A program made the position numbers and the translations under genes. A stretch of DNA of 26,531 bases from a virus. The notes beneath the pieces were generated by a model. The model made no database searches. It saw only the letters and a program-made list of their open reading frames with translations, and was not told the origin of the DNA. Where the stretch lies: positions 1 through 26,531 of the IMG/VR virus record IMGVR_UViG_3300030104_002922; one strand, written 5' to 3'. Shown here in pieces: positions 11,307 to 21,275 of this stretch. How positions within the stretch are numbered: the first letter of the stretch is position 1; every line of letters begins with the position of its first letter.

Positions 11307-11329
11307 AGGGGGTTCTTACCCCCTTTTTT
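11307..11329 (+). terminator. Rho-independent terminator after the 2OG oxygenase gene
   Basis: AGGGGG (11307-11312), loop TTCTTA, CCCCCT (11319-11324), then T to 11329. It ends the transcript carrying genes 55 to the oxygenase. Confidence 0.9.
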
Positions 11330-11331
11330 AT

Positions 11332-11340
11332 TGGTATAAT
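11332..11340 (+). promoter_or_regulatory. Extended -10 promoter for the metallopeptidase-VWA gene
   Basis: TGGTATAAT: TGn plus a consensus -10 box, 22 bases before the ATG. The -35 position falls in the terminator hairpin and has no consensus, so the promoter would depend on the extended -10 or an activator. Confidence 0.68.
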
Positions 11341-11362: not shown

Positions 11363-13561
11363 ATGCTTCACGAAATTAAAGGTAAACTTGCTAAACTCCT
11401 AGCAACAGAAAACTTAATCATCGAACACAGAGATGTATCTACAGCATCTTTTGATGTAGATCGTAGAGTCCTTACTCTACCAATGTGGAAGATTAATTCT
11501 GAAGATGTGTACGATCTTCTAGTAGCACATGAGGTTGGTCATGCACTTTTTACTGACCCTCGTAACTGGTTCATGGAAGATGAGTACAAAAATCTAAATC
11601 CATCTCTAGTAAACATCACAGAAGATGCTCGTATTGAGAAGTTGATGAAGAGAAGATATGCAGGTCTAAACAAAACATTCAGCAGAGGATATACACAGTT
11701 AAATGAGGATGATTTCTTTGAGACCAAAGGCGAAGATCTTGCTACATATAGTTTTCCTGATCGTATCAATCTATGGTTCAAGGTAGGTGCATTCTTAAAT
11801 ATCAAGTTTTCCAACACAGAAAAATATATCGTAGATCTTATTGGTAAAGCAGAAACATTTGATGATGCATTACAAGCAGCAAAAAAACTAAGAGATTTTA
11901 TTGAAGAGAATCAAAGTAAAGATCAAGAGTTTGTAGAGCAAGTAGTTTCAAAAGAAAATGTAAGTCAAGGTGGTCTTAACAATCCTGTTGACCTAGAAGA
12001 TCTACTAGATGATATACAAGATGAAAAAGAAGAACAAGAGTCAGGTCAAGGAGAAGGTAAACCAGATCAGTTTGATGAAGATTTTGATGAAGACAGAGAA
12101 GAGTATGAATCAGATCTAGATGTACCAAGTTACGAGCAAGGTGGCACTCATGGTAATAATGATTTTGAGACTAAAACTGTAGACTCACTAGCAGAAAAAT
12201 TAGAAGAACTCGCAGGTAAGTTTGACCCTAATCGTGAAGCACCAGTCTATGTAAATCTTCCAAAAATAAATCTTGATAGAACTGTAGTTCCTGTGAATGA
12301 AATTCATACTTATATTGAAACAGAGTGGAAAGCATATGAAGAAAAAATGAATGAGGAGTATGACAGTTATGGTGGTGCTAATTGGATAACACAATGGCAC
12401 AAAGATTCTGAAACAGAATATCAAAAGTTCAAAAGATCAACTGGTAAAGAAGTTAGTTATCTTGTTAAAGAATTTGAAATGAAAAAAGCAGCATCTGCAT
12501 ATGCTCGTGCTGCTACTTCTAAAACTGGAGTTCTTGATTGCTTAAAACTACACCAGTACAAGTTCAACGATGACATTTTCAAAAAGATTACAGTTCTTCC
12601 TGATGGTAAGAATCATGGCTTACTCTTTATACTAGATTGGTCAGGTTCTATGGCAGATGTGTTACTAAACACAGTAAAACAGATGTATAATTTGATATGG
12701 TTTGCTCGCAAAGTCGGCATCCCATATGAGGTTTACGCATTCAGCAACGAATGGTACTACTACGGTAACGCTGACAACAGACCTGCAGCAGAAGAGCAAG
12801 GTCCTGATGAGATATTCATTGAAGATCATTTCAGTTTGATGAACCTTCTTAGCAGCAACTGTAATGCTAAAGAGTGTGAGAGACAGATGCTAAACATCTG
12901 GAAGATAGCAGAAGGTTTTACTAGTAGATATGGAATTTCTCCTAGAAGGATGTCACTATCTGGCACTCCATTGAATGAAGCACTAATTTCTCTTCATGAA
13001 ATCATCCCTCAGTTCCAAAAAAATACTGGAGTTGAGAAAGTAAATTGTGTTGTACTTACTGACGGTGAAGCAAGTTCACTTTGTAGAACTGCAATGGTTC
13101 AGCGTAACTGGGAACCTCAACCAGAACTTCGTCACAAAGCAATTCGTAGTCACTGTTTCTTAAGACACAATGGTCATGTTCGTAGGTTAAGTGATGTTTA
13201 CTACAAGTTTACTAAGATCTTATTAGATGATCTTAAGTCATCTTTCCCTTCAGTTAATTTTGTAGGATTCCGTTTACTTGGTGCTAGAGATCTATCATCT
13301 ATGCTCAATCATTACATTTCAGATTTTGAGAAGAGAGATCGTGCTCGTGCTGACTGGAAAAAGCATAAGTCTTTCACTATCAAGAATCAAGGATACGATT
13401 CATTCTTTGTTCTTTCTTCCAACAATCTTTCAAATACTACTGAGTTTGAAGTTGCTCAAGATGCAACTAAAGCACAAATCAGATCTGCATTCAAGAAATC
13501 TTTTAACAACAAAAAGATGAACAAAAAAGTATTAGGCGAATTCGTTGAGATGGTCGCTTAA
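11363..13561 (+). CDS. CobT/DUF2201-like metallopeptidase with VWA domain
   Basis: 732 residues, three parts. N-terminal zincin-like domain: HEVGH (56-60) with a downstream NITEDARIE whose E87 would be the third zinc ligand, a gluzincin layout. An acidic linker (about 210-252). C-terminal von Willebrand A domain with MIDAS residues D425-x-S427-x-S429 (DWSGSM), T535 (SGTP) and D567 (LTDGE). This order matches COG3864/DUF2201 'predicted metallopeptidase-VWA' proteins and cobaltochelatase CobT, which also has an acidic linker and VWA domain. The following gene is a CobS/MoxR ATPase, the usual partner. Flanked on both sides by the same regulatory cassette. A cobalt-chelatase role would also need a CobN subunit, absent here; a protein-remodelling role is equally possible. 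Confidence 0.88.
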   Translation: MLHEIKGKLAKLLATENLIIEHRDVSTASFDVDRRVLTLPMWKINSEDVYDLLVAHEVGHALFTDPRNWFMEDEYKNLNPSLVNITEDARIEKLMKRRYAGLNKTFSRGYTQLNEDDFFETKGEDLATYSFPDRINLWFKVGAFLNIKFSNTEKYIVDLIGKAETFDDALQAAKKLRDFIEENQSKDQEFVEQVVSKENVSQGGLNNPVDLEDLLDDIQDEKEEQESGQGEGKPDQFDEDFDEDREEYESDLDVPSYEQGGTHGNNDFETKTVDSLAEKLEELAGKFDPNREAPVYVNLPKINLDRTVVPVNEIHTYIETEWKAYEEKMNEEYDSYGGANWITQWHKDSETEYQKFKRSTGKEVSYLVKEFEMKKAASAYARAATSKTGVLDCLKLHQYKFNDDIFKKITVLPDGKNHGLLFILDWSGSMADVLLNTVKQMYNLIWFARKVGIPYEVYAFSNEWYYYGNADNRPAAEEQGPDEIFIEDHFSLMNLLSSNCNAKECERQMLNIWKIAEGFTSRYGISPRRMSLSGTPLNEALISLHEIIPQFQKNTGVEKVNCVVLTDGEASSLCRTAMVQRNWEPQPELRHKAIRSHCFLRHNGHVRRLSDVYYKFTKILLDDLKSSFPSVNFVGFRLLGARDLSSMLNHYISDFEKRDRARADWKKHKSFTIKNQGYDSFFVLSSNNLSNTTEFEVAQDATKAQIRSAFKKSFNNKKMNKKVLGEFVEMVA

Positions 13562-13575
13562 CAAACTGTCCACTT

Positions 13576-13591
13576 GGGGGTTTATTCCCCC
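13576..13591 (+). terminator. Short G/C hairpin after the VWA gene, weak terminator
   Basis: GGGGG (13576-13580), loop TTTATT, CCCCC (13587-13591), followed by TTGATTT rather than a clean T run. Probably allows partial read-through into the ATPase gene. Confidence 0.6.
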
Positions 13592-13602
13592 TTGATTTAC
13601 AG

Positions 13603-13608
13603 TATAAT
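13603..13608 (+). promoter_or_regulatory. -10 box for the CobS-like ATPase gene
   Basis: TATAAT, 23 bases before the ATG, in the same place within the cassette as in copy 1. It lacks the TG extension (CAG instead) and has no clear -35. Confidence 0.6.
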
Positions 13609-13631
13609 ATATACATACACGAGACAACATT

Positions 13632-14717
13632 ATGGCTTTCCAAGCAAAATTTTCAAACGAAGACTTGATTTCATTCTTAACAAAAAACGATACTGTTAAA
13701 GAAGTTACTAGTAAAGAAATTAATGAAGCAGCAGCACACTTCGATGTACAAGTGCAAAGCGTTACAAAGCGTGTCAACAAACTTCAAGAGTTCCGTAAAG
13801 TTACTCGTGGTAAGTGGACATTAACTGTGGCAGAAGCACTAGAGAAAAATTATTCAGCACCTGCTGCTCAACCAGTACAGAGTACAAATCTTATTCCAGA
13901 GATAGATGATCACTTTGTTAAATTTGGAAACTTTAATGATATTAAAAAGATTATAAAATCCAAAGTATTTTATCCTGCATTCATCACAGGTTTATCAGGT
14001 AATGGTAAGACCTTCTCTGTAGAGCAAGCATGTGCTCAATCAAATAGAGAGTTTATTCGTGTCAACATCACAATCGAAACCGACGAAGATGACCTTATTG
14101 GTGGTTTCCGTCTTGTCAATGGCAGCACTGTATGGCATAACGGTCCAGTTGTCGAGGCATTGGAAAGGGGAGCTACACTCCTTTTAGATGAGATCGATCT
14201 AGCATCTAACAAGATTCTATGTTTACAATCTATCCTAGAAGGTAAAGGAGTATTCCTTAAAAAGATTGGTAGGCATGTTCTCCCTGCCAAGGGATTCAAT
14301 GTAATAGCAACTGCTAATACAAAAGGTAAAGGTTCTGACGATGGTAGATTCATCGGAACTAATGTTCTTAATGAAGCATTCCTTGAGAGATTCCCTGTAA
14401 CCTTTGAGCAATCATATCCTAGTGTTGCTATCGAGCAAAAGATTCTTGAAAAAGAATGTGCAGATACTGCATTCTGTAAGCATCTTGTAGACTGGGCAGA
14501 CATTATCCGTAAGACATTCTTTGACGGTGGTGTTGATGAGGTTATCTCAACTCGTAGGTTAGTTCACATTGTTCGTGCCTATGCTATCTGGGGTGACAAA
14601 CTCAAAGCAATCCAAGTTTGCTTAAATCGTTTCGATGATGAAACAAAATCTGCTTTCCTTGACTTATATGATAAGGTAGATGCAGATGTAGATCTCAAAT
14701 CTGAAGATGCTAATTAA
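13632..14717 (+). CDS. cobS: CobS-like MoxR-family AAA+ ATPase
   Basis: 361 residues. Residues 1-75 look like a small helical, possibly winged-helix domain (VQSVTKRVNKLQEFRKVTRGKWTLT). The AAA+ core has Walker A GLSGNGKT (120-127), Walker B LLLDEID with D186-E187, a sensor-1 region VIATANTKGKGSDDGRF, and NEAFLERF as the arginine-finger region. This is the MoxR/CobS type that marine T4-like phages carry and that is annotated cobS. CobS works with VWA partner CobT, and here the VWA-metallopeptidase gene lies directly upstream. The cobalamin function is by name only; I read a MoxR-VWA pair. The stop overlaps the next gene by 11 bases and a hairpin terminator follows at 14727. Confidence 0.9.
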   Translation: MAFQAKFSNEDLISFLTKNDTVKEVTSKEINEAAAHFDVQVQSVTKRVNKLQEFRKVTRGKWTLTVAEALEKNYSAPAAQPVQSTNLIPEIDDHFVKFGNFNDIKKIIKSKVFYPAFITGLSGNGKTFSVEQACAQSNREFIRVNITIETDEDDLIGGFRLVNGSTVWHNGPVVEALERGATLLLDEIDLASNKILCLQSILEGKGVFLKKIGRHVLPAKGFNVIATANTKGKGSDDGRFIGTNVLNEAFLERFPVTFEQSYPSVAIEQKILEKECADTAFCKHLVDWADIIRKTFFDGGVDEVISTRRLVHIVRAYAIWGDKLKAIQVCLNRFDDETKSAFLDLYDKVDADVDLKSEDAN

Positions 14718-18753: not shown

Positions 18754-19599
18754 ATGAAGCAATTAAAAACTCCTCTTCGTTATCCTGGTGGAAAATCTAG
18801 AGCAGTTAAAAAATTATTTGGTTTTTATCCTTGGAAAAGATCTGATGGTCGTCAACCAATGTATAGAGAGTTTCGTGAACCATTTCTAGGTGGTGGTTCG
18901 TTTGCTTTGGAATGGACTAAAAGATTTCCTAATACTAAAGTATGGGTTAATGATTTGTATGAACCATTAGCAAATTTTTGGATGGAATTGCAGCATGATG
19001 GTCAAGCATTACAGGATCAAGTTTTTAATTTAAAGAAGAAGTATCCTGATAGAGATTCTGCTAGAGAATTATTCACTCAAGCAAAAGATGATATAAACAA
19101 TAAAACATTACCAAATCTACATCGTGCAGCAGCATTTTATGTTACTAATAAATGTAGTTTTTCTGGTCTTACTGAGTCAAGTTCATTTTCTCCACAGGCA
19201 TCAGAATCTAATTTTTCTTATAGAGGAATTGAGAAACTAGCAGACTATGGAAATTTGATTCAGAATTGGAACATAACTAATAGTACATACTCAGATCTAT
19301 TAACTGACGATCCAACAGTCTTTATCTATTCAGATCCTCCTTACGATATTAAAACAAATTTATATGGTAAGAAGGGTGCTATGCATAAAGGATTTGATCA
19401 TGATATATTTGCACAAGATTGTGACAATGCATGTTGTGATCAGATAATATCTTATAACTCATCACAATTAGTTCGTGATCGTTTTATCAATTGGAATGCA
19501 TCTGAATTTGATCACACATATACTATGAGATCTGTAGGTAAATATATGTCAGAACAAATGGATCGCAAAGAGTTAGTCTTAACCAACTATACGATATGA
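18754..19599 (+). CDS. dam: Dam-family N6-adenine DNA methyltransferase (D12 class)
   Basis: 281 residues. D12-class order: LRYPGGKSRAVKK (SAM-binding N-terminus, residues about 8-20), REPFLGGGSFALEW (motif I), and catalytic DPPY at 194-197. Dam-type enzymes methylate adenine in GATC, but the target here cannot be read with certainty. It directly follows the nuclease-like gene and overlaps the carbamoyltransferase by ATGA. It is the second DNA methyltransferase of the window, unrelated in class to the one at 6775. Confidence 0.92.
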   Translation: MKQLKTPLRYPGGKSRAVKKLFGFYPWKRSDGRQPMYREFREPFLGGGSFALEWTKRFPNTKVWVNDLYEPLANFWMELQHDGQALQDQVFNLKKKYPDRDSARELFTQAKDDINNKTLPNLHRAAAFYVTNKCSFSGLTESSSFSPQASESNFSYRGIEKLADYGNLIQNWNITNSTYSDLLTDDPTVFIYSDPPYDIKTNLYGKKGAMHKGFDHDIFAQDCDNACCDQIISYNSSQLVRDRFINWNASEFDHTYTMRSVGKYMSEQMDRKELVLTNYTI

Positions 19600-21275
19600 A
19601 TATTATAGGACTATATGGTACAATTGAAAATCCAGAGGCAATAAGTCATGACTCTGGTGCAACTTTATTTGTAGATGGATATCATATTAGAAGTATAAAT
19701 GAAGAGCGTTTGAGTAGGATAAAAGAGGATGGTAGTTTTCCTTTTAGATCTATTGATTATGTCTTAGGAGATTATTCTAAAGATGATATTGATGTAGTAT
19801 GTTATGTTCCAACATACCCTTGGAATAATCTTTTTAAATATAGTGAAGTTACTACTACAGAGCGTAAAATTTGGTATGATGGAAAAGAAAAAGAAGCAAG
19901 TAAATTACTAAGAGATATATTTCCATGTGCAGATGTTTGGTTTTTATCGCATCATTTATGTCATGCAGCATCTACCGTATTTACTTCTCCATTTAATAGT
20001 GGAAGTTTTTTAACATTAGATGGTTTGGGTAGTGGACTGTGGGATTTTGCTACTGGTAATATTCGTGGAGGAGAAAATAATAGTATAGGATATTTTGATA
20101 AGAGAAAAAAGATTTTTAGATTCTTTCGTATGCCTGGCGATGTTGGTGAGAATTCTTTTGGAGAATTTTATTGTCAATGGTCTAAGATGATATATGAAGG
20201 TAAGTGTAAAGAGATAGGTAAAGATTATGAAGATGATAAGACACCAAAAGAAGGAAAGATAATGGGTCTTGCATCGTATGGAAATGAGGTAGACGCACCC
20301 AAACCATACACACTTGCTAATGATTATGCTAAAGAATTATTTGATATTGAAAAGTATGACTTCGGACATAATGTAGCAAACTTCTATGACTATCGTATGG
20401 TATTTAATTCTATCGAGGGAAGTTTAGAAGATAAGGCATATTATTTGCAAAGATCATTTGAGGATGCTCTGCTTGGATTGATTAAGTCTTTACAAAAAGA
20501 TGGTTACCTAGAAGATAATCATTGTTTTGCAGGTGGATCTTTCCTCAATGTATGTGCTAATAGTTTATTAAAACCATTGTTCAAGAACATGCATATACCA
20601 CCATATACAAATGACTCTGGTATTCATTTCGGAGCAGCAGCATGGGGTGCTTATAAAACTGGAAGTAATCCTCGTATGCCAAAAAATAATATTTCATACC
20701 TTGGAAAATCTTATGAAGATTTTGTTCCTGATGTAGAGAATATGGAATATTATAAAGACTTTGATTTGTTATGTGAGACAGTTGCTTTTGAACTTGAGAA
20801 GAATAAAATTGTAGGATGGTTCCAAGGTAGATCAGAACATGGTCCTCGTGCTCTTGGTAATCGTTCTATTCTCATGAGTGCTGCTCAAGCAGAAAATAAA
20901 GATATCTTGAATAAAAGAATTAAGCATCGTGAGCATTGGAGACCGTATGCTGGTATAATGTTAGAAGAAAGAATAGATGATTATTTTCTTGAGGGTGAAA
21001 TTACACCATACATGTTGAGTTCTCAGCATGCTATAAATGATAGGATCCCTGCTATTGTTCATGAGGATAAAACTTGTAGGATTCAAACTGTTAATAAGAA
21101 ACAAAATCCTAAAATATATCATCTACTATCTAAATTTGAAGATCCTGTTCTTTTAAATACATCATTCAACAAGAGTGGAGAACCTATCATTGAAACTCCA
21201 GAAGATGCTATTAAAGGATTTAAAAATATGGATCTAGATTTTCTTGTCATTGGGAATTACATACTATGGAATTAA
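19596..21275 (+). CDS. NodU/CmcH-family carbamoyltransferase
   Basis: 559 residues, full length. The N-terminal Kae1-like domain starts IGLYG.....HDSGATLF; metal ligands H119 and H123 (HHLCH), D142 (LTLDGLG) and D340 (NDSGIHFG) keep the spacing of TobZ as I recall it. The C-terminal domain has the family signature GWFQGRSEHGPRALGNRSIL and ends with LLNTSFNKSGEPI. These enzymes transfer carbamoyl from carbamoyl phosphate, through carbamoyl-AMP, to a hydroxyl group. Targets can be sugars, antibiotics or hydroxymethylated DNA bases in some phages. The acceptor here is unknown. ATGA overlap with dam and 10-base overlap with gene 62. Confidence 0.92.
   Translation: MNIIGLYGTIENPEAISHDSGATLFVDGYHIRSINEERLSRIKEDGSFPFRSIDYVLGDYSKDDIDVVCYVPTYPWNNLFKYSEVTTTERKIWYDGKEKEASKLLRDIFPCADVWFLSHHLCHAASTVFTSPFNSGSFLTLDGLGSGLWDFATGNIRGGENNSIGYFDKRKKIFRFFRMPGDVGENSFGEFYCQWSKMIYEGKCKEIGKDYEDDKTPKEGKIMGLASYGNEVDAPKPYTLANDYAKELFDIEKYDFGHNVANFYDYRMVFNSIEGSLEDKAYYLQRSFEDALLGLIKSLQKDGYLEDNHCFAGGSFLNVCANSLLKPLFKNMHIPPYTNDSGIHFGAAAWGAYKTGSNPRMPKNNISYLGKSYEDFVPDVENMEYYKDFDLLCETVAFELEKNKIVGWFQGRSEHGPRALGNRSILMSAAQAENKDILNKRIKHREHWRPYAGIMLEERIDDYFLEGEITPYMLSSQHAINDRIPAIVHEDKTCRIQTVNKKQNPKIYHLLSKFEDPVLLNTSFNKSGEPIIETPEDAIKGFKNMDLDFLVIGNYILWN

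Follow-up and report, generated by a model that had tools for sequence, protein, structure and literature searches.

A VWA-ATPase gene pair in the replication block of a T4-like virus

IMG/VR record IMGVR_UViG_3300030104_002922 is a linear, T4-like virus record of 26.5 kb that represents part of a genome, and the window analysed here is its whole length of 26,531 nt. Two adjacent genes in this window encode a VWA protein and a MoxR/CobS-like AAA+ ATPase (Table 1). An earlier reading of the letters alone (the sequence-only reading) had described a VWA open reading frame with HEVGH, NITEDARIE, an acidic linker and a complete metal ion-dependent adhesion site (MIDAS), followed by a MoxR/CobS ATPase gene, and all of these elements were found where it had placed them. 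Assignment with PHROG profiles gave the gene order gp21-22-23-3-uvsY-uvsW-55-(DNA methylase)-47-46-2OG-VWA-AAA-2OG-45-44-62-regA-hsp20-43, where 2OG stands for a 2-oxoglutarate-Fe(II) oxygenase; this order is syntenic with that of Prochlorococcus phage P-SSM2. The VWA and ATPase genes lie within the conserved T4-like (Kyanoviridae) block gp55-47-46-VWA-AAA-45-44-62-regA. The flanking 2OG oxygenases were rejected as partners: they adjoin the pair in the window, but such a gene follows the ATPase gene in only 5/57 loci and precedes the VWA gene in 2/72. An anti-phage defence system was also rejected, as no PADLOC model matched.

Table 1. Features of the VWA-ATPase locus in window coordinates
Feature	Position	Strand	Basis
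Intrinsic-terminator-like hairpin (GGGGGTTCTTACCCCC + T6), upstream of VWA gene	11308..11329	+	read directly
TATAAT box, 23-28 nt before VWA start; sigma70-type promoter candidate	11335..11340	+	sequence
VWA protein, 732 aa (amino acids): N-terminal zincin-like domain, acidic linker, C-terminal VWA-MIDAS	11363..13561	+	phrog_459 'peptidase', E 1.9e-247
N-terminal zincin-like (gluzincin-type) domain, residues 1-185	11363..11917	+	AlphaFold2 model and Foldseek
HEVGH, residues 56-60; presumed zinc ligands H56 and H60, presumed general base E57	11528..11542	+	conservation
NITEDARIE, residues 84-92; E87 the presumed third zinc ligand	11612..11638	+	conservation; helix 80-98
Acidic linker of low conservation, residues 186-280	11918..12202	+	32 D/E against 7 K/R in 95 residues
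VWA MIDAS, D425-x-S427-x-S429, T535, D567 (range D425 to G568)	12635..13066	+	invariance; NorD VWA fold match
GGGGGTTTATTCCCCC hairpin with weak T tract, between VWA and ATPase genes	13576..13591	+	read directly
TATAAT box, 24-29 nt before ATPase start	13603..13608	+	sequence
MoxR/CobS-like AAA+ ATPase, 361 aa	13632..14717	+	phrog_249 'porphyrin biosynthesis', E 6.5e-136

The VWA protein carries a strictly conserved, zincin-like site

Eight residues of the N-terminal domain (H56, E57, H60, N84, E87, D88, R90 and E92) and the MIDAS residues D425, S427, S429, T535 and D567 were invariant in 81/81 full-length VWA homologues. Per alignment column, an average of 44% of these homologues matched the window protein, and in the linker about 10-20% did. 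In a second set, reaching down to 29% identity, the same N-terminal residues with the exception of E92, together with the MIDAS, were invariant in 79/79 sequences. Judged by this conservation, the HExxH motif and its downstream glutamate are not a chance occurrence. HExxH is kept in the VWA partners of phages of Cyanobacteria, SAR11, Ochrobactrum, Rhizobium, Pseudoalteromonas, enterobacteria, Vibrio and two actinobacterial genera. Pseudomonas phage nickie (L087:1442-3526) and Stenotrophomonas phage ANB28 (L160:2492-4477) carry a CobT-like/CobS-like pair in which HExxH is replaced by SEISK and REVST, respectively, so that these two phages can serve as natural controls for what the peptidase site does.

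AlphaFold2 modelled the N-terminal domain with a predicted local distance difference test score (pLDDT) of 91.1 and a predicted template modelling score of 0.87. The whole VWA protein was modelled with a pLDDT of 78.5, residues 198-267 falling below 50. In the model, H56 and H60 lie on a predicted helix at residues 47-63 and E87 lies on the next, at residues 80-98, an arrangement like that in zincins and, at the level of helix placement, compatible with the metallopeptidase site suggested by the sequence-only reading. When the N-terminal model was searched against the PDB with Foldseek, the ten best matches were all zincins (ArdC, abylysin, jannalysin and selecase; best E 0.08, probability 0.96), and PprI, ZMPSTE24 and Wss1 were also among the matches. 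These fold matches support a gluzincin-like N-terminal domain, although they are not strong alone. Direct comparison of the VWA protein with the sequences of solved structures gave no meaningful match. Membership of the DUF2201/COG3864 profile, which the sequence-only reading had raised, was not borne out, as no such Pfam match to the VWA protein was obtained at E ≤ 1.

The ATPase belongs with MoxR-type motors

Searched as a whole, the VWA model matched best the VWA domains of NorD in NorQ-NorD complexes (E 8e-6), with the MIDAS domain of Rea1 lower down. The ATPase matched PF07728 (AAA_5; E 5e-17) and PF08406 (CbbQ_C; E 3.5e-5). Its catalytic motifs (Walker A GNGK, Walker B LLLDEID, sensor 1 TANT, R253 and RR308-309) were invariant across 58 homologues. 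The ATPase is thus a MoxR-clade AAA+ protein with intact Walker A and B motifs, sensors and arginine finger, and a MIDAS-bearing VWA protein adjoins it. Among solved single-domain chains the nearest to the ATPase were CobS (68 bits), then NorQ (46 bits) and CbbQ. Midasin was rejected as the nearest relative because its whole-protein score adds up the contributions of many modules, of which the best alone reaches 43 bits. In a phylogenetic tree the T4-like phage ATPases formed a clade (support 95/98) separate from CobS (100/100), with deep branches that are long and unsure. This separation speaks against a recent capture from a cobaltochelatase operon.

The VWA protein of the window is about 82-85% identical to those of four close uncultured relatives. 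In the comparison with the closest relatives, L003-L006, identity was 82-84% for the VWA protein and 96% for the ATPase. The VWA partner therefore evolves faster than the ATPase, as would be expected if its target changes.

Both genes are carried by nearly the same phages and have their own putative promoters

Among 50,697 phage records, tblastn located the VWA protein in 463, and in 457 there were hits that spanned 80% or more of the ATPase. The counts for the two proteins were equal in the main groups, namely 365 Synechococcus phages, 61 records named 'Cyanophage' and 24 Prochlorococcus phages. By this comparison of counts per phage group, the two proteins are held by nearly the same set of about 460 GenBank phages, in agreement with the co-occurrence expected from the sequence-only reading. 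The order gp46-VWA-AAA-gp45 is conserved and extends to the Pelagibacter phages HTVC008M and Mosig and to Ochrobactrum phage OC. In both Pelagibacter phages a gene for ribosomal protein S21 lies just downstream of the ATPase gene (L094:12783-12986 and L095:8742-8951). ATPase matches in Staphylococcus, Acinetobacter and Microbacterium phages were partial, had no HExxH/MIDAS partner in the regions read and sat on long tree branches; they were excluded from the co-occurrence. When 84,980 species genomes were scanned with a sequence pattern, just 21 relatives emerged. Almost all of these lay on contigs from metagenome assemblies or single cells, and those examined closely showed T4-like phage synteny. 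The family therefore looks viral.

Upstream of each of the two genes come a hairpin and then, some 25 nt ahead of the start codon, a TATAAT box. TATAAT was found in 38/77 regions upstream of VWA homologues (4 expected) and in 41/59 regions upstream of ATPase homologues (5 expected). The late motif occurred at chance level upstream of the same genes (2/77 and 2/59), and gp22 of the window has this motif, TATAAATA, at 640. It is thus probable that a separate sigma70-type promoter serves each of the two genes, and this suggests that they are expressed early or midway in infection.

The pair fails the cobaltochelatase family tests

The VWA protein gave no match to the CobT model TIGR01651 at E ≤ 1e-3 and none to PF06213 or PF11775 at E ≤ 1. 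The ATPase scored 59 bits against the CobS equivalog model TIGR01650 and so fails its cut-off of 558.55. No CobN model matched in the window, itself a genome fragment, consistent with the sequence-only reading that it encodes no CobN-like chelatase. A CobN-family gene was also found in none of 15 phage or phage-plasmid records, ten of which are whole GenBank records, whereas the search did recover CobN in the S. meliloti pSymB control. Class I ribonucleotide reductase, an enzyme that does not use B12, is encoded with both its subunits in nine of the ten whole records; the exception is the 50-kb ICP2. HTVC008M and Mosig infect SAR11, which is without MetH and MetE (PMC12478193). CobN-family proteins are present in a Prochlorococcus genome and in Synechococcus elongatus, and CobT was found in 0/61 genomes of the Prochlorococcus family. 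A Nonlabens genome was without a CobN-family protein, and a T4-like phage contig in the same assembly carries the pair.

Cellular CobT may descend from an ancestor with an intact site

The proteins of SSU5-type phages and phage-plasmids match both CobT Pfam domains (for PhiR41, PF06213 at E 9e-27 and PF11775 at E 8e-82) and keep HEVAH...NALEDVFIE. HHalign matched the peptidase domain of the SSU5/Rhizobium/nickie set to that of the window family with 97.6% probability (E 3.4e-12), and the VWA domain of the SSU5-type set to CobT with 99.9% probability. Direct comparison of the T4-like family with CobT was weak (E 0.018), so the homology to CobT rests on the phage-plasmid bridge. The sequence-only reading had assigned CobT the same three-part layout. 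The layout holds, but the HExxH motif was lost in all 31 cellular CobT proteins compared, its three positions being occupied by S/A/G/Q, mostly hydrophobic residues and R/K/W, with the downstream glutamate kept. The simplest reading of these alignments is that CobT arose from an ancestor with an intact site that was later lost. We regard as evenly balanced the broader proposition that CobT derives from a MoxR-coupled zinc-peptidase co-chaperone and has lost the catalytic function that phages still maintain, and that the cyanophage 'cobS', which hundreds of genomes are credited with as an auxiliary metabolic gene, is no cobalamin gene. The sequence link gives a testable origin for CobT, in which its N-terminal domain would have the architecture of the peptidase domain with the active site gone.

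In a sample of Alphaproteobacteria (G007 and G014-G108), which includes many drafts, CobT was found in 72/96 genomes and CobN in 40, and 33 CobT-positive genomes were without CobN. The Caulobacter vibrioides control likewise had CobT without CobN. This suggests that cellular CobST may have another job, and its role in the many alphaproteobacteria without CobN comes into question. Gordonia and Rhodococcus phage proteins annotated as 'CobT-like cobalamin biosynthesis protein' (L159 and L161) carry HExxH and MIDAS. The cobalamin misnaming therefore probably extends beyond cyanophages.

A MoxR-driven peptidase is the preferred explanation

We consider it probable that the pair consists of a MoxR AAA+ ATPase and a VWA co-chaperone bearing a zinc-peptidase domain; proteolysis, zinc binding and complex formation are what we infer from the comparisons above. 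This explanation is supported by the failed CobT and CobS family tests, the conservation of the site, the fold searches, the absence of CobN and the class I ribonucleotide reductase of the carriers. On these grounds the preference of the sequence-only reading for protein remodelling over cobalt chelation is supported in part, with cleavage of a target protein as a proposed activity; the idea is not wholly new (PMC7824862). In the proposed mechanism the ATPase would form a hexamer, on which the C-terminal VWA domain would dock while its MIDAS binds an acidic residue of the target protein. Driven by ATP hydrolysis, the VWA domain would then be pulled or twisted relative to the N-terminal domain by way of the flexible acidic linker, in the manner suggested for NorQ-NorD, and the opened target would be presented to the HExxH...E site and cut. 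For NorQ-NorD, a VWA finger is reported to enter the NorQ pore, and an ATP-driven twist of the VWA domain relative to the N-terminal domain through the linker is proposed (PMC13036017). By analogy, this motor principle likely carries over to the phage pair. Several points weigh against a peptidase. The Foldseek E-values to zincins are weak, no solved single-domain chain is closer to the ATPase than CobS, and the retention of the pair in nickie and ANB28 after loss of HExxH means that proteolysis is not required in every lineage. The equivalent of E87 also persists in HExxH-less CobT (31/31), so that the role of E87 may be a structural one instead of zinc binding.

It has instead been proposed that phage CobS/CobT borrow the CobN of the host and thereby increase the production of cobalamin or pseudocobalamin (Liu et al. 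2021, PMC8651126, and the cyanophage literature). The kinship of the ATPase to CobS fits this proposal, and a phage-supplied motor is conceivable in a host family that has CobN but not CobT. We nevertheless judge it improbable, given the CobS score far under its cut-off, the lack of a CobT match and the separate clade of the T4-like ATPases. Chelation has no known use for an intact HExxH, which cellular CobT has lost, the carriers encode a B12-independent reductase, and relatives occur in SAR11 phages and on the contig from the CobN-less Nonlabens assembly. A machine for metal insertion or enzyme activation without proteolysis, like NorQ-NorD, CbbQ-CbbO or CoxD-CoxE, in which HExxH holds or delivers a metal, would account for the NorD fold match, for CbbQ_C in the ATPase and for the two phage homologues and cellular CobT that do without HExxH. 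This too is unlikely, since E57, which is required for catalysis and not for metal binding, is invariant, and no metalloenzyme neighbour is conserved, the 2OG oxygenase following the ATPase gene in few loci. Within the peptidase explanation itself, the target could be structural proteins cut by a virion-assembly chaperone, as Iyer et al. 2021 proposed for an analogous pair of the same architecture in group 2.2 jumbo phages (PMC7824862). The same paper cites a MoxR-vWA pair of an archaeal virus that functions in tail assembly, and the head genes gp21-gp23 are located upstream in the window. The VWA and ATPase genes are placed within the replication block, however, behind TATAAT-type promoters and with the late motif of gp22 at chance level. 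Early or middle timing weakens a role in assembly, though it is compatible with one, and we regard this choice of target as possible but doubtful.

Relation to known systems

The genes, the 'peptidase' label and the status of cobS as a cyanophage core gene were already known (PMC3037559, PMC9983427). The phrog_459/phrog_249 pair of T4-like cyanophages (T4-GC 146 and 150; 'peptidase' and 'cobS') consists of full-length homologues alike in order and position, the window VWA protein being only about 45% identical to known ones if the four close uncultured relatives are set aside. From group 2.2 jumbo phages, a different phage group, Iyer et al. 2021 described a MoxR ATPase whose vWA partner is fused to a metallopeptidase (PMC7824862); by that published description, the domain architecture and the proposed working principle are alike. 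Liu et al. 2021 took the opposite view and called the 'peptidase' label a mistake (PMC8651126). The CobT-like/CobS-like pairs of SSU5-type phage-plasmids and of Rhizobium, Vibrio ICP2 and Gordonia phages share HExxH and MIDAS with the window, but the members tested match PF11775 (CobT_C), and several also PF06213, whereas the window protein matches neither. CobNST resembles the window pair in coupling an AAA+ motor to a partner with an N-domain, acidic linker and VWA domain, the kinship running through the phage-plasmid family; in contrast, CobT has no HExxH and works with CobN, and its family model misses the window protein. NorQ-NorD offers the closest solved VWA fold and an AAA protein with CbbQ_C, but an HExxH peptidase domain is not described for NorD in the accessible part of PMC13036017. 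What is new here, at the level of sequence comparison, is quantitative evidence for an intact and strictly kept site in the T4-like family and the view of cellular CobT as a degenerate relative; a search confined to the open-licence literature found no such statement about CobT.

As a cyanophage core gene, cobS serves as an ecological marker and is taken as a sign that phages increase the vitamin B12 of their hosts. Should the pair prove to be a protein-remodelling peptidase, these B12 interpretations of phage cobS would fall, and the pair would represent a core infection function common to phages of cyanobacteria, SAR11 and other bacteria.

Elsewhere in the replication block of the window, between gp44 and gp62, lies a gene for a Nol-like carbamoyltransferase (19596-21275; phrog_1601, E 4e-115), which adjoins a DNA methyltransferase gene at 18754-19599.

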